From positions 1-42,368 of the IMG/VR virus record IMGVR_UViG_3300010885_028387: a stretch of 42,368 nt of DNA. The stretch is one strand, 5' to 3'. Below are positions 21,561 through 39,650 of the stretch, piece after piece. Source of the stretch: a virus. Under the pieces are notes generated by a model. The model was not told where the DNA came from, made no database searches, and saw nothing but the letters and a program-made list of their open reading frames with translations. A program made the translations under genes and the position numbers. Within the stretch, counting starts at the first letter, position 1, and the number at the start of each line of letters is the position of its first letter.

Positions 21561-21583
21561 GGTGGTGTGTCCTCCTTCATTTG

Positions 21584-21627: not shown

Positions 21628-21653
21628 GCAGAGTACACATCCGTGCAAAAAAG

Positions 21654-27007: not shown

Positions 27008-27016
27008 TCGTCTTCT

Positions 27017-27068
27017 GTGTCATAGCAGACACTTGACACTTGACATTAGGCCTACGTAGGCCTATCTT
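27017..27068 (+). promoter_or_regulatory. Promoter with perfect spacer palindrome and upstream GTGTCATAGCA box
   Basis: GTGTCATAGCA at 27017-27027; -35 TTGACA at 27040-27045 (another TTGACA at 27033-27038); -10 TATCTT at 27063-27068; spacer 17. The palindrome AGGCCTACGTAGGCCT (27048-27063) fills the spacer. Drives the MoxR-like gene at 27112. Confidence 0.75.
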
Positions 27069-27111
27069 ATGGGGGCAGTCGATTTCAGCCTTCAACCAAA
27101 GGAACACACCA

Positions 27112-28197
27112 GTGAACACAACTCTCGCCGCCCCAGCATGGAAGTCCTACCGCGTCGGCACGATCGTCAAGCTCGACGACGGACGCAGCTTCACGATCGA
27201 CAGCATCTCGATCGTTCACACTGACCGTGGCTACAACTCCCGCCGCTTCACCCTGCGTGGCCCCGGCGGCAAGGAAGTCGTCAAGTCGAGCCGTGGCATC
27301 ACCCTCTGGGTGGCTGGTCTCGAAAACGATCGCGGCGAGCCGACGCCCGCCGCCAAGCCTGTTGAGAAGCCGCCGGTCTCGCCGGTCGTCACGACGGCTG
27401 GCAAGATACAGCACGCCTACTTCGAGGCACTGCTGCGGATCGTAAGGGCACGCCGCAACTCGTGGCTTTGCGGCCCGGCGGGCAGCGGTAAGACGACGTC
27501 TGCCAGCGAGGTGGCGAAGCTTCTCGGGCTGCGATTCTTTGCTAAGTCTGTCGGTCCGCAGGTGACCGAGTCGAGCCTGATTGGCTATCAGGACGCCAAC
27601 GGTAGGACTGTCCGGACTCAGCTTCGCGAGGCGTTCGAGTTTGGCGGCGTGTTCCTCCTCGACGAGGTCGATGCCGCCAGCCCGGCGGTTTTGGTCGTCA
27701 TCAACGCCCTGTTAGCCAACGGCGAGGCTTCCTTCCCCGACGTCGTCGTCGAGAAGCATCCGGATTTCGTCTTGATTGCCGGTGCCAACACGATCGGCCT
27801 CGGCGCGGATCGCCAGTACGTTGGACGTCAGCAGATCGACGCTGCCACCCTCGACCGCTTCGTCCTGCTCGACTGGCCCTACGATCCCCGGATCGAGGCG
27901 GCTGCGGCTGGCGTGGACGTGTCGGCTGTGTCGAAGTCGGCCTGCCCGTCCCCGTTCCGATTCGAGAGCGAGGACGGTGCTGAGGCTCGTTGCTACGAGT
28001 ACGTTCAGAAGGTGGTCGCGATCCGCAATGCGGTCTCCACCTTCGGCAAGGCCGTCCGCGTGATCATCAGTCCCCGCGCCTCGATCAACGGAACGGCCCT
28101 GATCCGGCAGGGCTTCTCGATTAACGACGCCCTGACCCTTTGCGTCTGGAAAGGTCTGGATACGGACACCCGCTCGAAGATCGAGGGGGCTTGCTAA
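27112..28197 (+). CDS. MoxR/CobS-like AAA+ ATPase (361 aa)
   Basis: GTG 27112 preceded by AAAGGAACACACCA. An N-terminal beta-rich domain (about 8-66) precedes a Pro-rich linker and the AAA+ core: Walker A GPAGSGKT from residue 121, Walker B FLLDEVDAAS near 182, sensor-1 LIAGANT, and the arginine-finger region DAATLDRFV. The lid is at the C-terminus (SPRASINGTALIRQGF). MoxR-type ATPases remodel proteins together with VWA-domain partners; the next gene looks like such a partner. Own promoter at 27040. Confidence 0.85.
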   Translation: MNTTLAAPAWKSYRVGTIVKLDDGRSFTIDSISIVHTDRGYNSRRFTLRGPGGKEVVKSSRGITLWVAGLENDRGEPTPAAKPVEKPPVSPVVTTAGKIQHAYFEALLRIVRARRNSWLCGPAGSGKTTSASEVAKLLGLRFFAKSVGPQVTESSLIGYQDANGRTVRTQLREAFEFGGVFLLDEVDAASPAVLVVINALLANGEASFPDVVVEKHPDFVLIAGANTIGLGADRQYVGRQQIDAATLDRFVLLDWPYDPRIEAAAAGVDVSAVSKSACPSPFRFESEDGAEARCYEYVQKVVAIRNAVSTFGKAVRVIISPRASINGTALIRQGFSINDALTLCVWKGLDTDTRSKIEGAC

Positions 28198-28219
28198 TCC
28201 GCCGACGTCCGCTTATACT
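28191..28219 (+). promoter_or_regulatory. Promoter TTGCTA-17-TATACT
   Basis: -35 TTGCTA (28191-28196) overlaps the end of the ATPase gene; -10 TATACT at 28214-28219; spacer 17. It lacks the CCTAGG core and the GTGTCATAGCA box. Allows the VWA-like gene to be expressed apart from the ATPase gene. Confidence 0.6.
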
Positions 28220-28253
28220 CAACAGCCACCACCAACCCCCCGGAGACTTACCA

Positions 28254-29078
28254 GTGAAGAAGATCACAACCGCTCGATTCGATTCTTGGGAAGAGTTCGT
28301 CGCCTCAGCCGAGAAGAGTTCCTATCGAGGATGGGACGCAGGCCACAGCAAAGGCAACGAGCCTTTCTACGGTACCTACAGTTTTGGGGAAGCCGCGAAG
28401 CTGGCCCGCGACGGCTGGGCCGAGGGTGCCGCCAGAGTTCAGAGCATCCGCGCCAGTCTGGGCGAGGTTATCAGCACGCTCGTGGCGGCTCGCGCCGAGT
28501 CGATCGGCTATGACGTCGCAGGAGACTACGTGGACGTCGGTCGATTTCTCGGAGGGGAGCCGGAGTGCTTCGGGGTCCGGGTGTGCGACGAGTCTCAGTC
28601 GAAGCCAGTCGTCAGGATCAACGTCAACACCGCAGTCAGTGCCTCCGTCTCGGCGTCTGCCATCTTCGGTCGCGGTGCGGCGATCCTTGCCGCGATCGAC
28701 GTGATCGAGGCCACTGGGAGCCGCGTCGAGGTCTGGGCGGTCAACGGCAACGTGAACAACAAAGGCAATCACGTCCACGAGACCTACGCGTTGATCAAGT
28801 CTGCGAGCCAGCCGCTCGACATCGACCGCCTTGCGTTTGCGTTCTGCCACCAGAGCAGCCACAGGAGGTTGGCGTTCTCTGTTTTTGAGCATTACGGCAT
28901 CAGGGCTGGCGAGTCATGCCCTCACGACGTGAGCATCACTGAGGGTATCAACACCCGCCCAGCCCGCCGCTCGCAGACTTTCACCCGTCAGGAATTGCTC
29001 GAAGAGATCAAGTGGATTTGCGATCAGGCCGGAGTGTGCATCTCGCAGGAAGAGATCGACGCTCTGGCTGTTGCCTGA
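28254..29078 (+). CDS. VWA-like partner of the MoxR-like ATPase (274 aa)
   Basis: GTG 28254 with CGGAG upstream. Residues about 1-115 contain SWEEFVASAE, GWDAGHSKGNEPFYGTYSFGEAAKLARDGW, a conserved phage/plasmid opening (possibly DUF7192). Residues about 119-215 read INVNTAVSASVSAS, RGAAILAAIDVIEATGSRVEVWAV: the layout of a von Willebrand factor A fold, but with the first MIDAS Asp replaced by Asn. A C-terminal helix follows (TRQELLEEIKWICDQAG). Its place after a MoxR-like gene supports the assignment; function of the pair is unknown. Confidence 0.62.
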   Translation: MKKITTARFDSWEEFVASAEKSSYRGWDAGHSKGNEPFYGTYSFGEAAKLARDGWAEGAARVQSIRASLGEVISTLVAARAESIGYDVAGDYVDVGRFLGGEPECFGVRVCDESQSKPVVRINVNTAVSASVSASAIFGRGAAILAAIDVIEATGSRVEVWAVNGNVNNKGNHVHETYALIKSASQPLDIDRLAFAFCHQSSHRRLAFSVFEHYGIRAGESCPHDVSITEGINTRPARRSQTFTRQELLEEIKWICDQAGVCISQEEIDALAVA

Positions 29079-29080
29079 TT

Positions 29081-29090
29081 GTTTGGATAC
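29081..29090 (+). promoter_or_regulatory. GTTTGGATAC element
   Basis: Variant of the GTACGGATAC element, just after the VWA-like gene and 38 bases before ATG 29119, followed by the usual CATCACCCCCAACGAAAG leader. Confidence 0.45.
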
Positions 29091-29118
29091 CATCACCCCC
29101 AACGAAAGAGACAGTGGA

Positions 29119-29247
29119 ATGAGCCTGATCAAGTTCATCGAAGCCGCTGAGTCTCACGGCTGGCATCACGAGCCAAGCGGTGCCCGCAGCGAGACTGGCG
29201 GCTGGACGCCAAACCCGGCAGCGATCACGTGGGGTTGCGGGCACTAA
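29119..29247 (+). CDS. Small ORF, 42 aa, in frame with the next gene
   Basis: ATG 29119 with AAAGAGACA upstream and a recurring leader element. MSLIKFIEAAESHGWHHEP, then Gly/Pro-rich to TAA 29245-29247. It is in the same frame as the GNAT gene ten bases on, so it may be a separate gene or the front of a larger protein broken by one stop. Confidence 0.5.
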   Translation: MSLIKFIEAAESHGWHHEPSGARSETGGWTPNPAAITWGCGH

Positions 29248-29256
29248 CCGACGCTC

Positions 29257-29613
29257 GTGCGTGGTGCGGTGCGTGTCGCGATCGAGAACATCGACCTCTA
29301 CTACCACAACGGACGCGCGTGGCGTGGAGACCCAACCGTGCAGCCTGACGATCGAGTCACGCTGGCAGCGATCATCGTTGACGGCGAGAGCCGGAGGCAA
29401 GGGCTGGCGACGGAGGCGATGAAAGACTTGCAGTCGATCGCTGCGAGTCTAGGCATGGAGATCAATCTCGAAGTCGCACCGATGGGTGCGTTCAAGGCGA
29501 AGGGCAAGAGGACGATCGAGACGCGAAGTCTGATTCGGTGGTACAAGTCCCTTGGGTTCCAGCCAGCGTGGCCGGGCGAGGGCGAGACCATACTCGTATG
29601 GAGGGCAACGTGA
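29257..29613 (+). CDS. GNAT-family acetyltransferase-like protein (118 aa)
   Basis: GTG 29257 is the first start after the in-frame TAA. Motif A VDGESRRQGLATEAMKDL with R46-x-x-G49-x-A51 would hold acetyl-CoA; SLIRWYKSLGF is the usual GNAT C-terminal motif. The N-terminal strands before motif A are short, consistent with a truncated or compact form. Substrate unknown. Confidence 0.7.
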   Translation: MRGAVRVAIENIDLYYHNGRAWRGDPTVQPDDRVTLAAIIVDGESRRQGLATEAMKDLQSIAASLGMEINLEVAPMGAFKAKGKRTIETRSLIRWYKSLGFQPAWPGEGETILVWRAT

Positions 29614-29861
29614 TGCACCAGATCAAACCGACGACATCGTTCGCAGGGACGCCGCGTGACCGGATGGCAGACGCACTGGCGTCAGTCGCGAACGCTCTCG
29701 AAGCGGCTCAGCGGCTCATGGGAGAGGCAACTCCCAACGGGCGAGACTACCATGATCAATCGCAGTGGGCGATCGATCGCAAGGAGTCGGATCGTCGCAT
29801 CCGGCTCGTCGAGGAGTTGGCGAGGCAATACTGGACCGAGGCCATGGAGGTGCAAGAATGA
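29613..29861 (+). CDS. Small helical protein (82 aa)
   Basis: ATG 29613 with GGAGGG seven bases upstream and overlapping the previous stop; GTG 29610 in the same frame is an alternative. Ala/Glu/Arg-rich helical protein with DRMADALASVANALEAAQRLMG and a final helix. No family recognised. Confidence 0.5.
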   Translation: MHQIKPTTSFAGTPRDRMADALASVANALEAAQRLMGEATPNGRDYHDQSQWAIDRKESDRRIRLVEELARQYWTEAMEVQE

Positions 29862-30085
29862 TCAAGAGTCAAGCGACGATCTGCAAGGAGGTCTACGAAT
29901 ACTTCCTGAAGCACGGCCTCGTCTGCGAGAACGGCGAACGCCGCACTGCCAGCATGGGGACGGCGAGCAACGCGTTTGTCGTCGCCTACGAGACGGGCAA
30001 GATTCACATCGCGGTGCGGAAGGGATCGGCGGCTCACGCGGCGGCACGGGCCGGGCTCAAGCTGAGGAAGGAGGCGCAAGAGTGA
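29858..30085 (+). CDS. Small basic protein (75 aa)
   Basis: ATG 29858 overlaps the preceding stop (ATGA). MIKSQATICKEVYEYFLKHGL is a helical opening, followed by a short beta part and a basic Ala-rich helix ending LKLRKEAQE. Possibly DNA-binding; no family recognised. Coupled to the next gene. Confidence 0.5.
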   Translation: MIKSQATICKEVYEYFLKHGLVCENGERRTASMGTASNAFVVAYETGKIHIAVRKGSAAHAAARAGLKLRKEAQE

Positions 30086-30297
30086 GAAAGACTGGAGACG
30101 CCGTCGACTGCCACCTCTGCGGGCGTGCCGTGACGGTCGTCCGCAGCGGCGTGAGCGGCAGACTGGCAAGGCACAAGTGCCCGCACGGCACGTGGTGCCA
30201 AGCCAGTCTCAGGGGGTGCTGGAGCAAGCGGCGATCGACCGTCTGCCGGGAGTGTCGACAGACCTGTCCGGGGGCAAGCCTCGAAAAACAGGCCTAA
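30082..30297 (+). CDS. Cys/His-rich zinc-finger-like protein (71 aa)
   Basis: GTG 30082 coupled to the previous stop. Cys/His clusters CHLCGRAV, HKCPHGTWC and CRECRQTC suggest two zinc sites. Basic overall, so nucleic-acid binding is plausible. Followed by a terminator hairpin. Confidence 0.6.
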   Translation: MRKTGDAVDCHLCGRAVTVVRSGVSGRLARHKCPHGTWCQASLRGCWSKRRSTVCRECRQTCPGASLEKQA

Positions 30298-30324
30298 AAA
30301 TCCGTGTGTCATAGCAGGATTTTT
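30296..30324 (+). terminator. Hairpin terminator containing the GTGTCATAGCA box
   Basis: AAAAATCC (30296-30303) pairs with GGATTTTT (30317-30324), and the T-rich arm makes it an intrinsic terminator for the operon before it. The loop carries the GTGTCATAGCA box of the next promoter. Confidence 0.65.
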
Positions 30325-30357
30325 CCCCTTGCCAATCCGCCTAGGTTGCCCTATACT
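30306..30357 (+). promoter_or_regulatory. Promoter TTGCCA-17-TATACT with upstream box
   Basis: GTGTCATAGCA 30306-30316, gap of 12, -35 TTGCCA 30329-30334, spacer with GCCTAGGTTGCC, -10 TATACT 30352-30357. GAGACACCA in the leader at 30372-30380. Drives the gene at 30401. Confidence 0.8.
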
Positions 30358-30400
30358 GCAAGGGCACAGACGAGACACCAGCCACAAAGGAGCCGCCACA

Positions 30401-31390
30401 ATGACCAACCTCAGCAACCTCTCGCCGGTCGCCGCCGACACGCTCTACGTGGAGCGGCTCGCCGCCCGAAGCACGGCTGCATTCTACGCCAAGCAGGATG
30501 AAGACTCTCTGGTGTACCTCTTCGGCCGGGGAGTCTACGTGAAGGGCGACCGTCGCTCTGGACCGACGCACGTCTACGTTCACCCAGACGCCCCGATCGC
30601 CGCCGGAGATGGCTGGCACCACAACCCCCTGCCGACTCTGGGGGACGTTCAGCCGCTCAAGGCCTATCAGGTCGTCGAGGCCTTCATCACCGGCCATCCC
30701 AAGGCCGCAGGCTACGGCGACCTGATCAAGGCCTACGGCAACGCCGAGGGGCGTCTCGCCGAGGCACGTCTTGCCGTCCAAGAGTCCGAAAACGACTACC
30801 GAAGCCGCCCGTGGGCACGCTACTTCCTCGTGACCTCCAGCGACGGCCACATTCACGCCTCGACCGGCTGCTCGACGTGCAACAAGGGCCGGGAGCCGAC
30901 CGGCTTCGCCCTCGTCCCCTACCTCAGCGGCGCGGCCCCAGCGGACGCCGTCGCAGACCTTGGCCCGGCTCTGTGCAGCGTGTGCTTCCCAGAGGCTCCC
31001 GTCGAGGACAAGGAGCAGGCTACGATCCCGGCCCGGCTTGCACTGGCTCTCAAGGAGCAAGGCTCCGAGGCCTTCCAGCAGGCCCGTCAGGAGGCCTCCG
31101 CCAAGGCCAAGTCCAAGGCGGCTGATCGCTGCCCCGGCAGCGGCGAGCGGGTCCAGATCGGCAAGCACGGCTACGTGAAGTGCCCGTCCTGCGGCTGGTC
31201 GTGCCGCTCCTCGACCGGGAAGGTCGCCGCCCACCGCCGCCCCCGGTTCTACGCCGTGCAGGCGGTCGAATACGGCAACGACAAGTTCTGGACCGGCACC
31301 GGCTGGGGGCCGTCGACCAAGAAGGTCGCCTTCGAGAGCCGGGAGGCGGCTCTGGCGATCGAGGGTGCGACGGAGGCCCGGAAAGACTGA
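30401..31390 (+). CDS. Multi-Cys zinc-binding phage protein (329 aa)
   Basis: ATG 30401 with AAAGGAG upstream. Domain near 140-210: SSDGHIHASTGCSTCNKG and LCSVCFPEAP, paired Cys sites resembling a small conserved module in many phage accessory proteins. A second zinc ribbon near 245-270 reads CPGSGERV...YVKCPSCGW. The C-terminus is beta-type. Probably binds DNA or RNA; specific role unknown. Has its own member of the repeated promoter family and shares a MTN opening with the gene at 39651. Confidence 0.7.
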   Translation: MTNLSNLSPVAADTLYVERLAARSTAAFYAKQDEDSLVYLFGRGVYVKGDRRSGPTHVYVHPDAPIAAGDGWHHNPLPTLGDVQPLKAYQVVEAFITGHPKAAGYGDLIKAYGNAEGRLAEARLAVQESENDYRSRPWARYFLVTSSDGHIHASTGCSTCNKGREPTGFALVPYLSGAAPADAVADLGPALCSVCFPEAPVEDKEQATIPARLALALKEQGSEAFQQARQEASAKAKSKAADRCPGSGERVQIGKHGYVKCPSCGWSCRSSTGKVAAHRRPRFYAVQAVEYGNDKFWTGTGWGPSTKKVAFESREAALAIEGATEARKD

Positions 31391-31393
31391 TCC

Positions 31394-31434
31394 GTGTCAT
31401 AGCATTTGACAATCGGCCTAGGTTGCCCTATACT
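31394..31434 (+). promoter_or_regulatory. Promoter TTGACA-17-TATACT with abutting upstream box
   Basis: GTGTCATAGCA 31394-31404, one base, -35 TTGACA 31406-31411, spacer with GGCCTAGGTTGCCC, -10 TATACT 31429-31434. GAGACACCA at 31450-31458. Drives the gene at 31479. Confidence 0.82.
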
Positions 31435-31478
31435 TGGGGCTCAGAGATCGAGACACCAGACACGAGGAGACGCGAGAC

Positions 31479-31841
31479 ATGAACGAGAACAAGACCAGCC
31501 AGCAATCGATCCACGAGGGCATCGAAGCCTACAACCGCGAACACCGCGAGCGTGAGAAGCGTGAGTTTTTTGCTTGGGCTTTGCCAAGACTGCTGGCGAG
31601 GCTTGGCGAAACCGACAAACTTTTGGGGCAGGCGGGCGGCGATCGCCCGGAGGTTGCCCGCCAGCAAGCCCGCAATCGCGACGCTATCGCCGCCGCCGGG
31701 GCGGACGCCGAAGGGCTTCTCGCAAGGCTGCGGGAGTCAGACAAACTGCTCTGGAAGATTCGCCCGGCCGACCGTCGCAGCAGGCTCAGGCTCGCCATTC
31801 TGGGGCAGTGCCAGCGAAACGAAAGCTTGATTGAATATTGA
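31479..31841 (+). CDS. Helical basic protein of unknown function (120 aa)
   Basis: ATG 31479 with AGGAGA upstream. Charged helical protein: KTSQQSIHEGIEAYNREHREREK, then two Leu/Arg-rich similar segments LLARLGETDKLLGQ and LLARLRESDKLLWK about 35 residues apart, suggesting an internal duplication. No family recognised. Sole or first gene behind its own strong promoter. Confidence 0.6.
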   Translation: MNENKTSQQSIHEGIEAYNREHREREKREFFAWALPRLLARLGETDKLLGQAGGDRPEVARQQARNRDAIAAAGADAEGLLARLRESDKLLWKIRPADRRSRLRLAILGQCQRNESLIEY

Positions 31842-31867
31842 ATGACCCGTCTTTCACCGTCCAACTT

Positions 31868-31877
31868 GTCCGGATAC
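31868..31877 (+). promoter_or_regulatory. GTCCGGATAC element
   Basis: Variant of the recurring element, 46 bases before GTG 31914, followed by ACTCGCCACCCCCCC and a Shine-Dalgarno sequence. Confidence 0.5.
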
Positions 31878-31913
31878 ACTCGCCACCCCCCCAAGACTCA
31901 AGGAGACTCACCA

Positions 31914-32144
31914 GTGAAGAACAAAAGCAGCCAGCAACGGATCGCGGAAGCCGCCCTGAAGTACGCACACAACACGACCAACGGCATCCTTCACGACAGC
32001 CTCTTGGAGAGCATTGCCCTTGGGCAAGTCTCAGTGTGGGTCGAGCAGCAGGACGATTGCATCTCGCCAGAGCGGATCGTGTTCGTCGCCCGCGAGGCCT
32101 GCAAACTGATTCGCAACCACTACCGGATTCTCGCCAGTCTCTAG
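31914..32144 (+). CDS. Small protein of unknown function (76 aa)
   Basis: GTG 31914 in the recurring CCAGTGAA context with AAGGAGA upstream. Helical: SSQQRIAEAALKYAHNTTNGILHDSLLESIALGQ and ERIVFVAREACKLIRNHY. It begins like the previous product (N-K-x-S-Q-Q), hinting at a relation. Function unknown. Confidence 0.55.
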   Translation: MKNKSSQQRIAEAALKYAHNTTNGILHDSLLESIALGQVSVWVEQQDDCISPERIVFVAREACKLIRNHYRILASL

Positions 32145-32153
32145 TCTGGATAC
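32144..32153 (+). promoter_or_regulatory. GTCTGGATAC element
   Basis: Variant placed at the stop codon of the previous gene and 34 bases before GTG 32178, with the leader CATCACCCGAAAGGAA. Confidence 0.45.
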
Positions 32154-32177
32154 CATCACCCGAAAGGAACCCAACCC

Positions 32178-32525
32178 GTGAACACCATCAACAAGCCAGA
32201 CGGCAGAGTGCATCGTCATCCCAACGGCGGCTACACGCTCGCGTGTGCGACATTCCTCGACGGCAAGCTTGCCACTGTGAACTACCGGACGATCAAAGGC
32301 CTCTGCGGAGGAGGCCAAAGACCCTACTGGGTGACTGAGGCCACCGTGGCCTTCTACGAAGGCGACGGGACTCAGTACCCGGTTCACACGAGCAAGCACG
32401 GCCTGCGGACGGTCAAGAACGGATTCACCAAGAAGCAGGCACTCGACGTGTTTCACATCGGTCACGAAGGCTTTGTACTGCGGGGCGACGTCGCCGTGCG
32501 GGCAAAGTTTGCACACCCAGAATGA
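32178..32525 (+). CDS. Protein of unknown function (115 aa)
   Basis: GTG 32178 with AAAGGAACC upstream. Beta-rich: NGGYTLACATFLDGKLATVNYRT and ATVAFYEGDGTQYPVHTSKHG. No motif recognised. The 3' end overlaps the leader of the next gene. Confidence 0.55.
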   Translation: MNTINKPDGRVHRHPNGGYTLACATFLDGKLATVNYRTIKGLCGGGQRPYWVTEATVAFYEGDGTQYPVHTSKHGLRTVKNGFTKKQALDVFHIGHEGFVLRGDVAVRAKFAHPE

Positions 32526-32539
32526 AAGGAACCCCACCA

Positions 32540-32713
32540 GTGACGCTCTTCATCAAGATCGATACCGACAACGCAGCGTTCGAGAACCCGCGAGAGATCG
32601 AGCGGTGCCTCGCGAAAGTCTACGACGACATCAGAGAACAGCCGGGCGTAGCTCAGAGCGGAGCCATCCGCGACTACAACGGCAACACCGTCGGCCAGTG
32701 GCAGCTTCAGTAG
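32540..32713 (+). CDS. Small protein of unknown function (57 aa)
   Basis: GTG 32540 with GAAAGGAACCCC upstream; ATG 32522 in frame is less likely since it lies within the ribosome-binding region. Opens MTLFIKIDTDNAAFENP and is short and alpha/beta; the pattern ENPREIERCLAKVYDDI resembles small phage proteins with the same opening. Function unknown. Confidence 0.55.
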   Translation: MTLFIKIDTDNAAFENPREIERCLAKVYDDIREQPGVAQSGAIRDYNGNTVGQWQLQ

Positions 32714-32722
32714 TACGGACTT
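32713..32722 (+). promoter_or_regulatory. GTACGGACTT element
   Basis: Variant overlapping the previous stop codon (TAG), 30 bases before ATG 32743. Confidence 0.4.
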
Positions 32723-32742
32723 AATCACCCGAAAGGAACCCC

Positions 32743-33783: not shown

Positions 33784-34223
33784 TGACCATCAACAGCGTG
33801 ATCGAGCGGCTGATCGCCGTCGTCACCCGCGACGGGCAGGAAGTCGAGTGGTTCGCGAGCGAGAAGGACGCGTCAGCGTTTGTGCAGCACGTCTACGGCC
33901 TGTCTCCCTACGATCTGATCGGCCACCCCAGCGTGGCGATCGGCGGGATCAGGGAGCCCCGCGCGGGTGATCTGGTCAAGACTCTGGAGGGGATCGCGAT
34001 GCTGTGCGGAGACGGGCGGGCGACACTCAACGCCCGGACGTTCCGCGCGGGGGCGCGAGTCTCGTGTTCAGGAGGCCCGGACGTGCCCGTAGACGTCGAT
34101 CGGCTGCGGCTGGTGGGTCTGGAGAGGGTCCAAGTCTGGCGGTGGGCAGACGGCTACCCAGCGGCTCACAACGACGGCTACTACGGCGTCACGGTGCCCG
34201 TCTGGGAGGAGGCAAAAACATGA
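33783..34223 (+). CDS. Protein of unknown function (146 aa)
   Basis: ATG 33783 coupled to the preceding stop with GGAGGAATAC upstream. Alpha/beta N-terminus VIERLIAVVTRDGQEVEWFASEKDASAF, a Gly-rich middle, and GYYGVTVPVWEE near the end. No family recognised. Confidence 0.55.
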   Translation: MTINSVIERLIAVVTRDGQEVEWFASEKDASAFVQHVYGLSPYDLIGHPSVAIGGIREPRAGDLVKTLEGIAMLCGDGRATLNARTFRAGARVSCSGGPDVPVDVDRLRLVGLERVQVWRWADGYPAAHNDGYYGVTVPVWEEAKT

Positions 34224-34342
34224 ACCGGATCATCGAGACCTTGCTCCTGATCCGGCTGGGGCAGGAACTGGGGACGGACAGCCCGCTTGCCCGAGCCGTT
34301 GCAGAAGTGCTGGAGTTGGCCGTAAAACAGGGCTTTTTCTGA
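34220..34342 (+). CDS. Small helical protein (40 aa)
   Basis: ATG 34220 overlaps the previous stop and has GGAGGAGGC upstream. MNRIIETLLLIRLGQELGTD with a hydrophobic helix and a C-terminal helix. Last gene before the promoter at 34358. No family recognised. Confidence 0.5.
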   Translation: MNRIIETLLLIRLGQELGTDSPLARAVAEVLELAVKQGFF

Positions 34343-34345
34343 ACT

Positions 34346-34385
34346 GTGTCATAGCACTTGCAATTCGCCTAGGTTGCCCTATAAT
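34346..34385 (+). promoter_or_regulatory. Promoter TTGCAA-16-TATAAT with abutting upstream box
   Basis: GTGTCATAGCA 34346-34356, one base, -35 TTGCAA 34358-34363, spacer with GCCTAGGTTGCC, -10 TATAAT 34380-34385. GAGACACCA at 34400-34408. Drives the gene at 34430. Confidence 0.8.
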
Positions 34386-34429
34386 GCAGGGGTCGAGACG
34401 AGACACCACGAACCACGAGGAGATCACCA

Positions 34430-35170
34430 GTGAACGCCACCGCCACCAACTACACCGTCGATCAGGCCTTCGCCGCCCTTGACGCTCTCAAGGCAATCAA
34501 GCCCAAGCACGATGCCATCTCGTCCGAGAGGGGCGGGTTTGTGTTCTGCCCGGACGCTCAAGTGTCTGCCGCTTATGTTGCCGCTGGCAAGCGGCTCTTC
34601 GAGGTCGCCAACTACTTCTACGCCACTTTGACCGGCTTCAAGACTCTCAACGATTGCCTCGACGCTCAGGGGCACGGCTACCGTCCGACCTTCAACGAGG
34701 ACGGCGGCAAGGATCGCGAGACGGTGTTTCTCGCCGAGGTCTACGATCTCATCGCTGAGGCTCGTGGGCTGGCTCTCCGGGCCTACCGTCCGCAGCAGGC
34801 CAAGCCGGAGCCCAAGCCCGCCCTGACGCTCCAGTCGCTCAAGGCGAACCTCAAGCACCTCCGAGACGAGGCCCATCGCGACACCAAGTCGATCGACGCA
34901 CGGTTCTTCCGTTCGAGCGGCACCGAGGTTCGATTCGGCGGCGATGCCGACGTCGACTACTGCTTCGTTGGAGAGTGGAATGGCACTCTCAAGCAACTCA
35001 AGAGTCTGGCCGAGGACTGCCGGAGCCGGGGCGGCAAGGTCGTGAGCCTCAGCGGGCACTGGAAGTGCGGCGACAACCTCGAAGACATCTTCGACCCGAC
35101 CGACTGCGAGTGGGAAGTCAACCTGACCCCGGACGAGATTCTGAACATCGGCAGGCGGTCTGCGTCATAG
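34430..35170 (+). CDS. Protein of unknown function (246 aa)
   Basis: GTG 34430 in the CCAGTGAA context. Helical N-terminal half (YTVDQAFAALDALKAIKPKHDAI, a Tyr-rich ANYFYATLTGF), a Pro/Ala linker near 120-130, then a smaller alpha/beta domain with SGTEVRFGGDADVDYCFVGEWNG and a Cys near the end. Two-domain layout, no family recognised. The largest unknown gene in this part and behind its own strong promoter. Confidence 0.6.
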   Translation: MNATATNYTVDQAFAALDALKAIKPKHDAISSERGGFVFCPDAQVSAAYVAAGKRLFEVANYFYATLTGFKTLNDCLDAQGHGYRPTFNEDGGKDRETVFLAEVYDLIAEARGLALRAYRPQQAKPEPKPALTLQSLKANLKHLRDEAHRDTKSIDARFFRSSGTEVRFGGDADVDYCFVGEWNGTLKQLKSLAEDCRSRGGKVVSLSGHWKCGDNLEDIFDPTDCEWEVNLTPDEILNIGRRSAS

Positions 35171-35202
35171 CACTTGCCAATCTGCCTACATCCGCTGTGA
35201 CC
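35162..35202 (+). promoter_or_regulatory. Degenerate copy of the repeated promoter
   Basis: GCGTCATAGCA (one mismatch) 35162-35172, one base, TTGCCA 35174-35179, a GCCTACATCC spacer, and only a poor -10 (GTGACC, 35197-35202). Appears decayed; the gene at 35268 would depend on it or on readthrough. Confidence 0.5.
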
Positions 35203-35267
35203 AAGACCTCTCGTCATGGATCGATTCCTGAGCATTGCCCATCACCACCAACCCGAGGAGACGACCA

Positions 35268-35615
35268 GTGAACATCATCACCCCCGAGATCGAGACCGAA
35301 GCCGCCCTTTACGCTGAGGGCACGAAGTACACCAAGGCGGACATCATCGCTGAGTATCGCGCGCACGTCCGACGCGCCGCCGAGGACGGCGTCGAGCATC
35401 TCGACATTCAGCGGTTCTGCGAGGGCGTGCTGTGTATCGGTCAGCGTGAGTATCAGATCGCGTTCGTGAAGGCGGACGGATCGTTCGACGTGGTTCAGAC
35501 GCTTCTGGCTGGCAACGACGAGGAGGCAAACGACTACGCCTCGCACGCCTACGCCGGTCGCGAGTGGTTCGTGTTGGACGAGAACGGCAACAACATCAAC
35601 GGAGGTGACCAGTGA
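35268..35615 (+). CDS. Protein of unknown function (115 aa)
   Basis: GTG 35268 with GAGGAGACGACCA upstream; in-frame ATG 35235 ignored as it precedes the Shine-Dalgarno. Acidic alpha/beta protein with GQREYQIAFVKADGSFDVVQT and a C-terminal AYAGREWFVLDENGNNI. No family recognised. Coupled to the next gene. Confidence 0.55.
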   Translation: MNIITPEIETEAALYAEGTKYTKADIIAEYRAHVRRAAEDGVEHLDIQRFCEGVLCIGQREYQIAFVKADGSFDVVQTLLAGNDEEANDYASHAYAGREWFVLDENGNNINGGDQ

Positions 35616-35818
35616 ACACCAGCGAAACCAACGACGACATCGCGTGGCGGCTCCTGCGGGAGGCCCGCTACGCCAAGCCGAGCCGGAAGGTCGAGGCGTG
35701 CCACCGGGCGGCGGCTTGGCTCGACGAGGGGCCGTGCGACGACGCCGGGCTCCTCGACGAGATGCACAAGGAACTGGCGGAGATCGAGTCAGCAATTCCA
35801 GAGTGGCAAAGGAGGTGA
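35612..35818 (+). CDS. Small helical protein (68 aa)
   Basis: GTG 35612 with a perfect GGAGGTGA ribosome binding site, overlapping the previous stop. Helical with AWRLLREARYAKPSRKVEACHRAAAWLDEGP; resembles tetratricopeptide-like helix pairs but is too short to assign. Function unknown. Confidence 0.55.
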   Translation: MNTSETNDDIAWRLLREARYAKPSRKVEACHRAAAWLDEGPCDDAGLLDEMHKELAEIESAIPEWQRR

Positions 35819-35821
35819 CCC

Positions 35822-36064
35822 ATGCACCCCAACATCGAAGCCGCCGTGCGGTGGTCGATCGACGAGTTCGATCGCCGCACGCGGCTGCTCGAAGAAAACT
35901 CGCCCGAGGCGAGAGTTGACTGGATCAACCCGGACTATCGAGTCTCGTGGACCGACGTCTGTGCAAGGTTCTTCGACGACCCGCCCGTGCGGGACTTCGC
36001 TGGACTGCGGATCGATTACGACACGGCATTCAAACAGGAACTCAAGAGGAGGAACAGCAAGTGA
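35822..36064 (+). CDS. Small protein of unknown function (80 aa)
   Basis: ATG 35822 with GGAGGTGACCC upstream. Acidic/aromatic helical protein: MHPNIEAAVRWSIDEFDRRT then DWINPDYRVSWTDVCARFFDD. No family recognised. Stop overlaps the next start (GTGA). Confidence 0.55.
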   Translation: MHPNIEAAVRWSIDEFDRRTRLLEENSPEARVDWINPDYRVSWTDVCARFFDDPPVRDFAGLRIDYDTAFKQELKRRNSK

Positions 36065-36330
36065 ACACCATCTACACCCCTGAAGCACTTGAGCGAAGCG
36101 TTGCTAAGGGCAAGTACAAGACTTGCCTCTTGCGAGACTTCGGCAAGACCGACACCGACGACGCGTTTGTCTTCGTCTTTCCGTCGCCAGACTTGATCAA
36201 CGCCGAGAACGGCGACGGCAACTTCCTCGAAGTCTGGGACTACGCCCGCGACCTGTCGAGCGTCACCACGAGCCGTGGCGACATCGCAACCAACCCCGAG
36301 ACCGTCATCTACTACACGTGGGAGGACTGA
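36061..36330 (+). CDS. Small protein of unknown function (89 aa)
   Basis: GTG 36061 coupled to the preceding stop with AAGAGGAGGAA upstream. Beta-rich with CLLRDFGKTDTDDAFVFVFPS and ending ETVIYYTWED. No family recognised. Confidence 0.55.
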   Translation: MNTIYTPEALERSVAKGKYKTCLLRDFGKTDTDDAFVFVFPSPDLINAENGDGNFLEVWDYARDLSSVTTSRGDIATNPETVIYYTWED

Positions 36331-36332
36331 GC

Positions 36333-36536
36333 ATGAAAAAGTGGAACGTCCGTAGCTGGAAGACTCACGACCGCAGAACCCTTCGAGGGGCGGTGATCAA
36401 GCTCATGGTTCACCACGAGGTGATCGTGGCACAGATCAAGACCGATGCGTTGCGGTTTTTCTTCGAGAAGCACCCGGAGGACCGCGACGGGCTGACCGTC
36501 ACGGCGTCGCCGCTGAAGGTGAGGGCAGGGACATGA
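36333..36536 (+). CDS. Small basic protein (67 aa)
   Basis: ATG 36333 two bases after the previous stop with GGAGGACTGAGC upstream. Basic with MKKWNVRSWKTHDRRTLRG and HHEVIVAQIKTDALRFFFEKHP. Could bind nucleic acid, but no motif is clear. Coupled to the next ATG. Confidence 0.5.
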   Translation: MKKWNVRSWKTHDRRTLRGAVIKLMVHHEVIVAQIKTDALRFFFEKHPEDRDGLTVTASPLKVRAGT

Positions 36537-36805
36537 GCAATGAATTCATCACGACTGATCACGCCTACGAAACGCTCGATCTGCTTCGGCGAAGCATCGA
36601 GGACTTGACGTCGATCCGGCGGATTCTCCGCCGGGCACGGCGTCAGGGCAAAGGCGTTCACCCCGGCAAGTGTCGAGACACGCTCTCGTCGTGCATTGCC
36701 GACCTGATCGAGTCTTGCGCTCACCTGTCGCAGGGCGACGACGCTGATCGGATTGCACTGAGCAAGGAACTGGCGACGCGGATCATCGAGGAGGACACCA
36801 AGTGA
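36533..36805 (+). CDS. Small helical protein (90 aa)
   Basis: ATG 36533 overlaps the previous stop with AGGGACA upstream. Helical with a basic middle stretch RRILRRARRQGKGVHPGKC and helices before and after. No family recognised. Confidence 0.5.
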   Translation: MSNEFITTDHAYETLDLLRRSIEDLTSIRRILRRARRQGKGVHPGKCRDTLSSCIADLIESCAHLSQGDDADRIALSKELATRIIEEDTK

Positions 36806-37044
36806 GCAACATGACGGGCGACGATCAGCAACTTCTGGACGATTGCGTCAACCACTTGCGAGGCACCATCCACATGAATGCGAAAGTCGCGCCGCGACTG
36901 CGGGTGCCGGTCAGCATCTGCGGCTCAGTACGCACTTGGATGCACAGGCATCTCGTCGGCGTGGGCTTGCTATGGGGCCACGCTGCCGAGACGAACGAAT
37001 ACGAAAGACTTGTTTCACTGGTCAAGGAAAGGGTCGAGCGATGA
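36802..37044 (+). CDS. Small protein of unknown function (80 aa)
   Basis: GTG 36802 coupled to the preceding stop with GAGGAGGAC upstream. Helical with MTGDDQQLLDDCVNHLRGTIHM and SVRTWMHRHLVGVG. No family recognised. Next ATG overlaps its stop. Confidence 0.5.
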   Translation: MSNMTGDDQQLLDDCVNHLRGTIHMNAKVAPRLRVPVSICGSVRTWMHRHLVGVGLLWGHAAETNEYERLVSLVKERVER

Positions 37045-37415
37045 GCATAATTAGCGACAAGAACGGCAGGCCTGTCTACGTAAGGCGAAACAACAGGTAT
37101 GTCGTCTACAGGATCGGCAAGTTCGGAAACTACGAGTGCGACGACGAGCGTACCTACGGCTCAGTTGAAGACGTTCGTGCCGACTACCCTGAAGCGGTCA
37201 AGCACGTAGACAAGAGAGCAACAAAGGCCAAGAAGCGACACCCAGACACGCACTACAGGCCTTCCGGCAAGGCGGCTCAATGTCTTGGAACACCCGGATC
37301 AACGCTGAGCAATGATCAATGGCTCAACTGCAAGGCGACAAGCGACATCTCGAAGGTGACTTGCAAGGAATGCCTGAAGCAAGTCCGCACACTCATCAAC
37401 AGTAGGCTCGAATGA
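37041..37415 (+). CDS. Basic Cys-containing protein (124 aa)
   Basis: ATG 37041 coupled to the previous stop. An N-terminal beta part (VYVRRNNRYVVYRIGKFGNYECDDERTY), a basic linker with THYRPSGKAAQCLG, and a C-terminal CKATSDISKVTCKECLKQ with CxxC that could bind zinc. No family recognised. Confidence 0.55.
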   Translation: MSIISDKNGRPVYVRRNNRYVVYRIGKFGNYECDDERTYGSVEDVRADYPEAVKHVDKRATKAKKRHPDTHYRPSGKAAQCLGTPGSTLSNDQWLNCKATSDISKVTCKECLKQVRTLINSRLE

Positions 37416-37714
37416 CACTCCCCCTCTACCCCGGCGCGTCGCCGTGCGTCGGCTCAGGCTATTGCTGCAAGGTGCGGCCGTGCCCGTTCGGAAAGGGGAC
37501 GCCGTGCGTGCATCTCAAGCCGGTCGACGGCCTGCGGTACACGTGCGGCATCGCTGAGGAGATCATGACAAAGCCGGGATGGGAACTGTCGCCAGCGTTC
37601 GGCGCGGGCTGCTCATCGACACTCTTCAACGCTGACCGGGCCCGGATAATTCGCTTGGCTCGCGCGACCGGTACGGATACGCTTTCCACAACCATAGAAG
37701 GGATAATCCAGTGA
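37412..37714 (+). CDS. Cys-rich metal-binding-like protein (100 aa)
   Basis: ATG 37412 coupled to the previous stop. CVGSGYCCKVRPCPFGKGTPCVHL, YTCGIAEEI and FGAGCSSTLFN give many Cys in an arrangement seen in small conserved phage/bacterial proteins (YkgJ-type zinc/iron chelators have a similar opening). Metal binding is likely; role unknown. An exact GTACGGATAC lies inside it at 37671. Confidence 0.65.
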   Translation: MTLPLYPGASPCVGSGYCCKVRPCPFGKGTPCVHLKPVDGLRYTCGIAEEIMTKPGWELSPAFGAGCSSTLFNADRARIIRLARATGTDTLSTTIEGIIQ

Positions 37715-38103
37715 GAAAAAAACGCACAGTCGCCAAGCAAGTCAACGATCCGCTCAAGTACGTGAGGGAGTTTGCGCCCAGCCTCACGGTGGCGAGGGCG
37801 AGTCTCCTGCCGTTTGAAGACCTGATCGCCTCAGAGTCTGCCGGGCCACAAAACGGCGAATCCGATGAAGCCTACTTCGAGATCATGGTTGACACTCACG
37901 AGTACGGCCCGGACACGAGAGTCGCGGCTCACGTCACTGCCGAAGACGTGACCATGTCCGTCTACGAGGTTCTGCTCGATGAGGACGGCGAGCCGGAGAG
38001 CGAGTTCGAGATCGACACGTGGAAGTCTTCCCTCGAAGGCCTTTGGGAATGGCTGCGACAACTCCCCCGCCCCGCTCGATCGTACCGTCGGCGAACTCGT
38101 TGA
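37711..38103 (+). CDS. Acidic protein of unknown function (130 aa)
   Basis: GTG 37711 coupled to the previous stop. A basic start (MRKKRTVAKQ) is followed by an acidic alpha/beta body with EAYFEIMVDTHEYGPDTRVAAHV and a final basic RSYRRRTR. No family recognised. A promoter overlaps its 3' end. Confidence 0.55.
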   Translation: MRKKRTVAKQVNDPLKYVREFAPSLTVARASLLPFEDLIASESAGPQNGESDEAYFEIMVDTHEYGPDTRVAAHVTAEDVTMSVYEVLLDEDGEPESEFEIDTWKSSLEGLWEWLRQLPRPARSYRRRTR

Positions 38104-38128
38104 CATTGTTCCTATCTCACGCGATAAT
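38100..38128 (+). promoter_or_regulatory. Promoter TTGACA-17-GATAAT
   Basis: -35 TTGACA 38100-38105 begins at the end of the preceding gene, spacer 17, -10 GATAAT 38123-38128. It lacks the CCTAGG core of the other family. Drives the HTH gene at 38149, so a separately controlled regulator is likely. Confidence 0.7.
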
Positions 38129-38148
38129 CCAGACAGAAGGAGAACCCT

Positions 38149-38448
38149 ATGTCCAAACCACTTGTTACGCCTCCAGAGATTCGGCTCGTGCTGACTCGTG
38201 AGGCCGCGAAAATCATCGGCTGCTCCATGCGTCAAGTTCGCTCTCTCGCAGAGCGTGGCGTGATCAAGAGTTGGTCGCTAGGCCCGAAGTCTTCCGCGTA
38301 TGACATCGAAGAGATCAAGAAGTACAAGACCGAGAAGGAAGCCGGTCGCAAGGCAGGCACCGTTCGAGGTGCCCGTCCGCAGGGGTACAAGCGAGATGTG
38401 ATGCCTCACGAGCGGGCGGCGGCAGCGGCAGCGGCAAAGAAGAAATAG
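38149..38448 (+). CDS. Excisionase/MerR-like HTH protein (99 aa)
   Basis: ATG 38149 with AAGGAGAACCCT upstream. LTREAAKIIGCSMRQVRSLAERGVIKSW followed by SAYDIEEIKKY is the winged-helix opening of excisionase/MerR-type proteins. A basic/Ala-rich tail follows. It may be a directionality factor or a repressor; the array's repeated operators make a regulatory role attractive. Its stop is next to a GTGTCATAGCA box and terminator. Confidence 0.75.
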   Translation: MSKPLVTPPEIRLVLTREAAKIIGCSMRQVRSLAERGVIKSWSLGPKSSAYDIEEIKKYKTEKEAGRKAGTVRGARPQGYKRDVMPHERAAAAAAAKKK

Positions 38449-38520
38449 TGTCATAGCAAAAAGCCCTTGTTTTTCAGGGGCTTTCTGCCTGTTGACAATC
38501 GGCCTAGCTTGCCCTATACT
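38448..38520 (+). promoter_or_regulatory. Promoter TTGACA-17-TATACT with distant upstream box
   Basis: GTGTCATAGCA 38448-38458, gap of 33, -35 TTGACA 38492-38497, spacer with GGCCTAGCTTGCCC, -10 TATACT 38515-38520; GAGACACCG at 38536-38544. A terminator hairpin lies in the gap. Drives the gene at 38566. Confidence 0.78.
38460..38484 (+). terminator. Hairpin terminator after the HTH gene
   Basis: AAAGCCC (38460-38466) pairs with GGGCTTT (38478-38484) around a T-rich loop. It closes the HTH transcript before the next promoter. Confidence 0.65.
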
Positions 38521-38565
38521 AGGGGCTGAGAGATCGAGACACCGCGAACCAAAGGACGACGAACA

Positions 38566-38964
38566 ATGAAGACCACCAACAGCAATCAGAAGAACCCAGC
38601 CAGCTACCTGCTCGCCGCCACCGTCGGCTGCGGCTTCAACTACCGCACCACGTCCAGCAAGCTCCACCGCGTCGGAAGCAACGGCGTCGGCGTTGTCGAA
38701 GTGCTGTACGACGCCGTCGCCGTCAGCAAGAACACCGGGCACGTGACGCCGCTGCTGTGCAGCACGAACCGTGCCGAGTGCAAGCGTGCGGTCGAAACGC
38801 ACAAAGCTCGCCAATTGGTTCACAGTCTGGAAGCGACGCTTGAGACGTTCCGCAAGTGGCACGCGGACGGAGACACGACCGACGCGGAACACGCGGACGC
38901 AGTGCGGACGACGGTTCGGCGGATCGCTGACGCCAAGGCGAGGCTCGACAAGCTGAACGGCTGA
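38566..38964 (+). CDS. Protein of unknown function (132 aa)
   Basis: ATG 38566 with AAAGGACGACGAACA upstream. A beta-type N-terminal half (SYLLAATVGCGFNYRTTSSKLHRVG) and a helical C-terminal half (HSLEATLETFRKWHADGDTT). No family recognised. Behind its own member of the promoter family. Confidence 0.55.
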   Translation: MKTTNSNQKNPASYLLAATVGCGFNYRTTSSKLHRVGSNGVGVVEVLYDAVAVSKNTGHVTPLLCSTNRAECKRAVETHKARQLVHSLEATLETFRKWHADGDTTDAEHADAVRTTVRRIADAKARLDKLNG

Positions 38965-38967
38965 TTT

Positions 38968-38977
38968 GTACGGATAC
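38968..38977 (+). promoter_or_regulatory. GTACGGATAC element
   Basis: Exact copy just after the stop codon and 39 bases before ATG 39007, with leader CACCACCCTCAACCAAAGGA. Confidence 0.55.
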
Positions 38978-39006
38978 CACCACCCTCAACCAAAGGACAA
39001 CGAGCA

Positions 39007-39291
39007 ATGGCAACGATCAGCAACTCCGACGGCTCCTGCAAGGTCCGCTCCTGCTTCGTGGACGGCAAGTGGGTGCCTTACGACGAGATCATCGCGAAGA
39101 CGAGCGAGCGGGTCTTGGGCCTGCTCTCCGACGGCCCTAAGACTCGCCGCTACCTAGGCAAGGCAATCGGCAGCAAGGCAGTGTTTATCGACGCTGCCCT
39201 CCGCAGCCTCTCGCGGTCAGGCCGCGCGGTGGCTTCGATCGGCCCAGTCCTGAACTGCCGTCGCGGACGGGTCTGGACGATCCTCGACTGA
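39007..39291 (+). CDS. Winged-helix-like small protein (94 aa)
   Basis: ATG 39007. After an N-terminal strand, ASERV-like helices ERVLGLLSDGPKTRRYLGKAIG, then AALRSLSRSGRAVASIG and a wing (NCRRGRVWTIL). The layout fits a winged helix DNA-binding fold. Similar to the small protein at 41081 in size and the C-terminal basic wing. Target unknown. Confidence 0.62.
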   Translation: MATISNSDGSCKVRSCFVDGKWVPYDEIIAKTSERVLGLLSDGPKTRRYLGKAIGSKAVFIDAALRSLSRSGRAVASIGPVLNCRRGRVWTILD

Positions 39292-39294
39292 TTT

Positions 39295-39304
39295 GTACGG
39301 ATAC
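39295..39304 (+). promoter_or_regulatory. GTACGGATAC element
   Basis: Exact copy just after the stop codon and 40 bases before ATG 39335, with a leader nearly identical to that at 38968. Confidence 0.55.
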
Positions 39305-39334
39305 AACCACCCCTAGCCAAAGGACGACGAACAG

Positions 39335-39559
39335 ATGAAGCGACTCTGGACAGGCAATACGGTTCGGCAAGAGGTGATCCGGTTTGCGTCGGTGCGGCGT
39401 GACTTCGCCCCCGGCGATGCCGTCGAAGCCGTGTGCGACGGCTGGGAGCGTTGCCCGGTCAACAGCATCAATCATCAGATAGGCCTTTACGTCCGCGACC
39501 TGTCGGACTGTGCTTGGAAGCGGCTGGTTCGGGACGTTAAAAAAGCGCGACGCGGCTGA
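39335..39559 (+). CDS. Small basic protein (74 aa)
   Basis: ATG 39335 with AAAGGACGACGAACAG upstream. TVRQEVIRFASVRRDFAPGDAVEAVCDGWERC then a helix ending VRDVKKARRG. Could be a small beta domain with a basic tail; no family recognised. Confidence 0.55.
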   Translation: MKRLWTGNTVRQEVIRFASVRRDFAPGDAVEAVCDGWERCPVNSINHQIGLYVRDLSDCAWKRLVRDVKKARRG

Positions 39560-39561
39560 TT

Positions 39562-39571
39562 GTCCGGATAC
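39562..39571 (+). promoter_or_regulatory. GTCCGGATAC element
   Basis: Variant directly after the stop codon and eight bases upstream of the -35 of the promoter at 39579, the only case where both elements meet. Confidence 0.5.
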
Positions 39572-39578
39572 CACCCAA

Positions 39579-39607
39579 TTGACAATCCGCCTAGGTTGTC
39601 CTATACT
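39579..39607 (+). promoter_or_regulatory. Promoter TTGACA-17-TATACT
   Basis: -35 TTGACA 39579-39584, spacer with GCCTAGGTTGTCC, -10 TATACT 39602-39607. No GTGTCATAGCA box; the GTCCGGATAC element lies where that box would be. The leader contains CGACACCA. Drives the gene at 39651. Confidence 0.8.
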
Positions 39608-39650
39608 TCACCCAGACGAGAACGACACCAACCGCAAAGGAGCCGACACA

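Follow-up and report, generated by a model that had tools for sequence, protein, structure and literature searches.

How might a phage shut several separate transcription units at the same time? The question is raised by a stretch of viral DNA of 42,368 bases (IMG/VR virus record IMGVR_UViG_3300010885_028387; hereafter the window), in which promoter-like sequences of the sigma-70 type carry a dyad in the spacer between the -35 and -10 boxes. A sequence-only reading of the window had proposed that one repressor, bound to this spacer palindrome, silences several units. In related phages, the orthologous promoters are conserved in position, boxes and flanks while the 14-bp spacer dyad differs. 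This pattern is probably explained by strong promoters that are shut jointly by one phage-encoded dimer; the most likely binder would be a 99-amino-acid (99-aa) helix-turn-helix (HTH) protein encoded at 38149..38448 on the plus strand (protein 38149).

Promoters with a dyad in the spacer

The same phage is also represented by IMGVR_UViG_3300027747_001390 (G001; 75,626 bases), which aligns with the window at an offset of +1618 with six mismatches across the window and is identical to it from 27000 to 42368; G001 is not an independent relative. Relatives were gathered with PhoH, two HTH proteins and DNA patterns as queries. All are environmental phage records; all are contigs and probably incomplete. 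The related records are 3300032305_001858 (G004), 3300004123_000133 (G005), 3300032313_000663 (G006), 3300034101_002812 (G007) and 3300034101_003081 (G008), together with 3300042515_002333 (G018) and with G013 and G014. More distant records are 3300009155_000163 (G009), 3300009151_007382 (G010), 3300032312_002146 (G011) and 3300009684_000078 (G012). G013 and G014 contain the integrase and a homolog of the second HTH protein (22103, discussed below), and no promoter of the set.

All six promoters listed in the sequence-only reading are present, each on the plus strand. Promoter I (27040..27068, TTGACA-17-TATCTT) stands before the gene of a MoxR-like AAA protein (27112-28197). Promoter II (30329..30357, TTGCCA-17-TATACT) stands before an open reading frame (ORF) at 30401-31390; IIb is located at 31406..31434 (TTGACA-17-TATACT); III (34358..34385, TTGCAA-16-TATAAT) stands before ORF 34430-35170. 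Promoters V (38492..38520) and Vb (39579..39607) both read TTGACA-17-TATACT, and Vb stands before ORF 39651-40571. TTGACA and TATACT are each found in four of the six; the spacer is 17 bp in five and 16 bp in one. The set has one more strong member, the seventh, past the window end at G001 44556, before a DUF932 gene; by sight only, the genes downstream of it are helicase- and nuclease-like. Promoter I has orthologs in G004, G005, G006 and G008, and promoter V in G004, G006, G007 and G008.

The dyad is made up of two 6-bp half-sites that flank a 2-bp centre. It is perfect in promoter I (GGCCTACGTAGGCC, 27049-27062). The other operators are CGCCTAGGTTGCCC (II and III), GGCCTAGGTTGCCC (IIb), GGCCTAGCTTGCCC (V) and CGCCTAGGTTGTCC (Vb); these five copies contain GCCTAGGTTGCCC either exactly (30339, 31416, 34367) or with one mismatch (38502, 39589). 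The palindrome reported in the spacers is borne out, and the description as a near-identical family fits these five copies; the copy at 27040 is clearly different. The site at 35174, reported as a decayed copy (IV; 35162..35179, plus strand), is indeed one: TTGCCA and, before it, GCGTCATAGC are kept, the left half GCCTA follows just after it, and the -10 box is lost. Its ortholog in G006 (17862) is intact with a perfect dyad. The earlier list had overlooked a weaker promoter, Ib (28191..28219, plus strand, TTGCTA-17-TATACT), whose dyad CGCCGACGTCCGCT (core CCGACGTCCG) is an exception to the CCTA class; it had also overlooked a dyad-free promoter at 38100, the promoter at G001 44556 and an upstream element, GTGTCATAGC.

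A strict scan (TTG and TA..T fixed, at most two mismatches in all, spacing 16-18; limits chosen after the sites were seen) finds six sites on the plus strand of the window and none on the minus strand; the mean over 60 Markov-1 shuffles is 0.13 per strand, with a maximum of 1. Plus- and minus-strand counts are 7/0 in G001, 5/0 in G004 and 7/0 in G006. The result is less extreme in a generic scan of 22600-42368, which finds nine promoter-like sites against 2.8 (standard deviation (sd) 1.8) in 50 shuffles; these are the six plus 28191, 38100 and 40568. With up to three mismatches, GCCTAGGTTGCCC matches 19 times against 9.2 expected, a count reached in none of 100 shuffles. CCTAGG alone is unremarkable (eight in the window, a count reached by 4 of 100 shuffles), and terminator-like stems are not in excess (14 found, 14.3 in shuffles).

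Two other roles for the palindromes were considered and rejected by reasoning. These are CCTAGG as a target of restriction or methylation and the palindromes as RNA hairpins; the letters change from phage to phage, and the site is located upstream of the expected start.

Concerted replacement of the dyad between related phages

The dyads fall into five classes. Class A (G001 and G004) has a CCTA-type dyad, with CCTA in the left half at 7/7 strict promoters of G001 and 5/5 of G004. Class B (G006) has CKGA-SS-TCMG at 7/7 strict promoters, in orthologous places; two of these are perfect (GACTGACCTCAGTC, TGCTGACGTCAGCA), and two sites in G005 are similar to this type. Class C (G007) is represented by GTGTGACGTCGCAC and GTATGACGTCAGGC, and class D (G008) by TCCCGACATCTGCA and similar dyads. 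In class E (G009 to G012), a perfect dyad, TACCGATGTCGGTA or TACCGATATCGGTA (TACCGA-TG-TCGGTA or TACCGA-TA-TCGGTA), is located in a promoter-like stretch after the HTH gene. By sight, a primase/polymerase-like gene follows the perfect TACCGA-NN-TCGGTA dyad in G009 to G012.

The core CKGASSTCMG occurs eight times in the 54 kb of G006, 8/8 within promoter spacers. Exact matches to the class A pattern (G001, G004) and to the class B pattern (G006) are confined to promoter spacers. Matches with one or two mismatches occur elsewhere too and were not judged singly; the class A pattern gives 18 of them in the class B phage G006.

Symmetry was scored in the best of four registers, applied alike to the data and to spacer shuffles. 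Class A has 54/84 symmetric pairs (null 36.3, sd 3.1) and class B has 46/60 (null 26.0, sd 2.7); none of 4000 spacer shuffles reaches either value. Classes C and D are weaker, with 27 and 46 of 4000 shuffles reaching the observed value. Dyad symmetry is clearest in class B and class E.

The switch itself was compared at 22 sites of G001, G004 and G006, with the exception Ib included and the decayed IV of G001 left out. The dyad register had been set by hand on the core for 10/28 sites in a first identity count, and the figures given here are from a repeat with Ib added. Operators at different loci within one phage are 73% (G001), 67% (G004) and 70% (G006) identical. Operators at the same locus are 42% identical between class A and class B (12 pairs), and those at different loci of different classes are 38% identical (100 pairs). 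The flanks at the same locus are 67% (upstream 40) and 73% (downstream 40) identical across classes A and B, whereas between loci within a phage they are 47-53% (upstream) and 56-59% (downstream) identical. None of 5000 label shuffles separates the operators as well as the class labels do, although the sites are not independent, some loci being common to G001 and G004. Parallel replacement of the dyad between conserved flanks argues for one phage-specific trans-acting dimer.

Likeness between promoters within a phage could also arise with no trans-acting factor, from recent duplication or conversion of a promoter cassette; five class A copies repeat CGCCTAGGTTGCCC and GGCCTAGGTTGCCC with hardly a letter changed. 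However, the likeness ends at the promoter, as can be seen from the flank identities above, and the G006 copies differ in sequence yet remain symmetric. A recent cassette duplication would not produce the concerted pattern, which would instead be explained by selection by a common reader. This origin for the set is highly improbable.

The common reader might be a host regulator, the classes then corresponding to different hosts. Searches of genome contigs with the integrase and with the HTH alignment (71 and 15 candidate stretches) confirmed no relative. However, phages as similar as G001 and G006 (PhoH 91% identical) would then need hosts with different regulators. The odd sites Ib and IV also look like leftovers of a switch in the phage, which would speak against a host regulator. 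It is very unlikely that a host protein reads the dyad.

Candidate binders of the dyad

A homolog of 38149 is found in 10/10 operator-bearing records that reach the region. The protein is 97% identical to its counterpart in G004 (same class) and 65% identical to that in G006 (other class). Among 50 orthologs of G001, G004 and G006, it ranks second in within- minus between-class identity, for which the median excess is 0.8 points. In class E, the homolog is divergent and lies beside the integrase, and the perfect dyad follows; a half-site, TATCGGTA, stands directly before the HTH gene in three of the four records (G010, G011, G012). The HTH mRNA of G009 to G012 may be nearly leaderless.

The gene of 38149 has its own near-consensus promoter at 38100..38128 (plus strand, TTGACA-17-GATAAT), with no dyad and only a left half CCTA. 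This dyad-free promoter is the same in G004; it is found in a 3-mismatch form in G007 and a 4-mismatch form in G006, and none is found in G008. Since one CCTA half-site stands in register at the class A promoter, weak autoregulation is possible.

The AlphaFold model of 38149 is a winged helix (mean pLDDT 74) of a predicted MerR/Xis type. The closest solved structures are BldC (Z 7.9, 57 aligned, 2.5 Å), SoxR (Z 6.6) and Pukovnik Xis, all with Z below 8; Foldseek with this model gave no match at E <=0.001. The winged helix is followed only by helices 53-69 and 86-98, and there is no C-terminal effector-binding domain. Alignment rows for the homologs cover mainly residues 8-74 of 38149 and are hardly informative beyond them.

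The MerR-type fold predicted for this candidate raises the possibility of activation: a bound dimer would reshape the spacer and turn the promoters on. MerR regulators (e.g. SoxR, CueR, BmrR) bind dyads within the promoter spacer, and both the predicted fold and the position of the dyad are similar here. However, promoters activated by MerR regulators have an elongated spacer of 19-20 bp, while the spacers here are 16-17 bp with near-consensus boxes; the lack of an effector domain is a further difference from the family. A MerR-like activator site is an unlikely explanation.

The second HTH protein, 22103 (156 aa, 22103..22573, plus strand), has two HTH-like segments and is encoded beside the integrase. 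Its model (mean pLDDT 50) contains two helix-helix-strand-strand units at low confidence, which hints at two winged-helix units. Special conservation of its helices between classes was considered and dropped, as 2/14 residues differ in each helix. A tblastn search (E up to 0.01) did not detect 22103 in the fragments of class E, which carry dyad operators. The sequence-only reading had named both HTH proteins for footprinting. Of the two, 38149 is preferred as the candidate, since its homologs accompany dyad operators wherever a record reaches the region and 22103 was not found in the class E fragments.

Weighing the evidence

In the proposed mechanism, strong sigma-70 promoters would stand before several phage transcription units. 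With near-consensus boxes at 16-17 bp, RNA polymerase should use these promoters unaided. A phage-encoded dimer on the spacer dyad would cover a stretch that the polymerase needs and block it; one dimer would then shut several units together. In related phages, the half-site would have been exchanged in parallel at almost every promoter, as is the case in heteroimmune phages, and 38149 would be the most likely binder. The tyrosine integrase gene (20688..21638, minus strand) suggests a temperate phage, and a role of the dimer in keeping lysogeny may be proposed from this gene.

The earlier proposal of one repressor for several units has two parts. A single phage-coded factor is strongly supported by the concerted replacement of the dyad with flanks conserved. 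We infer repression from the position of the site between near-consensus boxes; binding and its timing are likewise proposed.

Several observations weigh against this interpretation. One of the eight G001 sites (IV uncounted), promoter Ib, retains a class B/D-type core (CCGACGTCCG). The corresponding site in G004 is a hybrid (TCCTACATCCGC), and so is the decayed copy IV, with GCCTA as its left half and TCCGC as its right. These exceptions contrast with CCTA at 7/8 sites of G001, a CCTA half at 6/6 sites of G004 and the class B type at 8/8 sites of G006. They resemble leftovers; even so, the switch is incomplete and the regulon lacks uniformity. Apart from promoter I, class A operators show symmetry in just 3-4/6 pairs, and class D is negative for symmetry in a fixed register (5/24 against a null of 6.2). 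The class E promoter boxes were read by sight; they have 3-4 mismatches to consensus and fail the strict scan.

Other such observations concern the binder. Six of the ten records with a 38149 homolog (G007-G012) were retrieved with the HTH query, so that co-occurrence is partly built in; G001, G004, G006 and G018 were found without it. A 532-aa protein (G001 49168) ranks above 38149 in class-tracking divergence, and by G001-G006 identity alone 38149 is just the 11th most diverged of 66. Classes A and B have the same SMRQVR segment in the recognition helix of 38149. Between these classes, 3/12 helix residues change in 38149 and 2/14 in each helix of 22103; the helix comparison therefore does not single out 38149. 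Xis-type relatives such as phage 186 Apl bind direct repeats according to the cited part of one report (PMC7498355), while the sites here are dyads.

The same regulon might be read by another phage protein (e.g. 22103 or an unrecognised one), with 38149 acting only as an excisionase; this alternative shares its regulon part with the mechanism above. 38149 matches the excisionase families TIGR01764 'excise' (17.7 of 28.8 bits) and HTH_17 (17.6 of 27), in both cases below cut-off. Pukovnik Xis is among its closest solved neighbours, and its homolog adjoins the integrase in class E. In the present phage, the 38149 gene is about 16.5 kb from the integrase, and 22103 occupies the integrase-side place. 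Between classes A and B, the change in the helices of 22103 is similar in extent to that in the 38149 helix, in a comparison that lacks 22103 of G004 (this record begins past the gene position). On the other hand, the class E fragments, with their dyad operators, gave no match to 22103 (tblastn, E up to 0.01), and excisionase and repressor roles are compatible, as phage 186 Apl does both in the cited part of that report (PMC7498355). A different phage reader is a possibility to be taken seriously, albeit somewhat doubtful.

Joint shut-off of the spacer-dyad promoters by one phage-encoded dimer is the likely explanation of the set. We infer the identity of the binder more tentatively: that 38149 is the protein on the dyad was at first an even call, and is placed slightly short of even because of the helix comparison.

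The upstream element

The element GTGTCATAGC is found on the plus strand before five of the promoters in the window. It lies 23 nt before the -35 box of promoters I (27017..27026) and II (30306..30315), 12 nt before that of IIb (31394..31403) and III (34346..34355), and 44 nt before that of V (38448..38457). At the decayed copy IV it has the form GCGTCATAGC (35162), and Vb is without it. A stem, AAAGCCC...GGGCTTT, can be seen by sight after the 38448 element and is absent from the matches of the terminator-like stem scan.

Across the phages, 20/29 promoter sites have GTGTCATAGC (at most two mismatches) at a distance of 12, 23-24 or 44-46 bp upstream of the -35 box. The nine sites without it are G001 41197 and 44556; G004 14348; G006 13126, 13550, 21344 and 24913; G005 17640; and G007 12139. 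The last was entered one base off (the true -35 box, TTGACT, is at 12140) both in this tally and in the fixed-register symmetry, and its row is unreliable. Exact TCATAGCA words in the window are upstream of set promoters in 6/6 cases, one of them at the decayed copy; elsewhere, two are found away from promoters (G005 2857, G006 44026). The element does not switch, being kept in classes A to D while the dyad changes. The 9-base word GTGTCATAG is absent from G009, G010 and G011 and occurs once in G012, on the opposite strand.

At promoter III, the element is 12 nt from the -35 box in G001 and G007 and 24 nt in G004 and G006, about one turn apart. A circular test at 10.5 bp gives R 0.90 for 15 states and 0.94 for 7 states (p 0.00000 and 0.00005 against a uniform 10-49); the best-fitting periods are 11.1 and 10.7 bp, respectively. 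The states were collapsed by hand from 20 sites to 15 and then to 7 locus/distance states, and orthologs are not independent. There is, then, a hint of helical phasing near 10.5-11 bp, and a phased element suggests the site of a DNA-bound partner. A composite pattern search returned two known records (G001, G006) and three chance matches, and so gave no independent test of the phasing.

It may be speculated that 22103 reads GTGTCATAGC. The class D homolog of 22103 is just 50% identical although GTGTCATAG is kept there, which speaks against this pairing. If it holds, the promoters would form a two-input module. A minimal MerR-fold, excisionase-related protein would act as an immunity-type master repressor in the 16-17-bp spacers, with a specificity that differs among the five classes; 22103, on the non-switching GTGTCATAGC and on one helix face at 12, 23-24 or 44-46 bp before the -35 box, would activate or gate the same promoters. 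This module is rather doubtful, and was judged slightly less favourably once the pairing of 22103 with GTGTCATAGC was taken as speculation.

Other features of the phage

Proteins encoded in the window include an HK97-type capsid protein, the tyrosine integrase, PhoH and the MoxR-like AAA protein. With two other window proteins as queries, matches were again found only in G001, G004 and G006. A set of 50,697 phage records contains no near-identity match to window 27000-42368 and no match to either HTH protein. The capsid protein matches 24 of these records, and the 12 matches listed are 25-31% identical. A protein at G001 48325-49068, SSB-like by sight, has one phage-record match (22%). An Rfam scan of 20000-42368 found no family.

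Several pattern or PhoH matches were set aside. L008 and L010 are considered unrelated (41-42% GC; a scan finds no promoter of the set), as are L058, L059 and L060 (36-40% GC; no HTH homolog). L014 has a PhoH match of 77%, and a pattern check shows no promoter of the set.

Another element with a strand bias, TTGT[AC][CT]GGATAC, is found with variants at window positions 10987, 29079, 31866, 38966, 39293 and 39560 and elsewhere in G001. It often follows a stop codon directly, with the next start some 25-45 nt downstream; by sight, some copies are inside genes. Regular-expression counts on the plus and minus strands, with many double counts, are 17/0 in G001, 11/0 in G004, 8/1 in G006 and 13/1 in G008; a looser expression gives 37/9 in G001. 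A terminator-like hairpin, GCCTAGGAAACTAGGC, lies at 26988-27003 between PhoH and promoter I, with a T-rich tail and with CCTAGG as part of the stem. The stem is kept in G004 and G005, and its letters are changed in G006. ARAGORN reports a tRNA-Thr inside an ORF (L018 1600-1670; window ~39982-40052, minus strand), which is probably a false positive.

Comparison with known systems

The comparisons below refer to the cited parts of the respective papers. Cluster A mycobacteriophages (L5, Bxb1, Trixie) have genome-wide repressor sites in one orientation, with a consensus that differs by phage type and repressors that discriminate between them; L5 and Bxb1, which differ in consensus, are heteroimmune (PMC6550527). 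The sites described here resemble these stoperators in being many, in having one orientation and in having a phage-specific consensus, Ib of G001 being the exception. In contrast, cluster A sites are 13 bp, lie mostly outside promoters and act on elongation, whereas the well-supported sites here are dyads in promoter spacers.

SPbeta encodes a master repressor, MrpR, with an element (SPBRE) at about ten promoter regions across the prophage (PMC10516654). One phage master repressor for many promoter regions is likewise proposed here. MrpR resembles tyrosine recombinases, whereas a winged helix is predicted for the 99-aa candidate here, and the element lies between the -35 and -10 boxes.

In mycobacteriophage BPs, gp33 has a 12-bp palindromic operator at an early promoter and more copies in intergenic regions (PMC4557955). 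Palindromic sites at several places are a common feature; full BPs sites consist of two half-sites with variable spacing, while a single 14-bp dyad is found here at a nearly fixed place in at least seven promoters. The excisionase Apl of phage 186 also has a regulatory role at early promoters, and it binds cooperatively to direct repeats one helix turn apart (PMC7498355); an excisionase-related candidate for the regulation of promoters is the point of likeness.

The system would work like those of cluster A and of SPbeta MrpR, as far as the cited parts describe them; the differences would be where the site lies and which kind of regulator probably acts on it. Five operator types occur naturally on the promoters of these related phages, and each type has a small candidate reader. 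The way in which a phage alters its regulator's specificity together with many operators has been studied mainly in mycobacteriophages, according to the parts cited, and this series would make the question testable. The uncultured phages are also a source of related parts, both operators and promoters.

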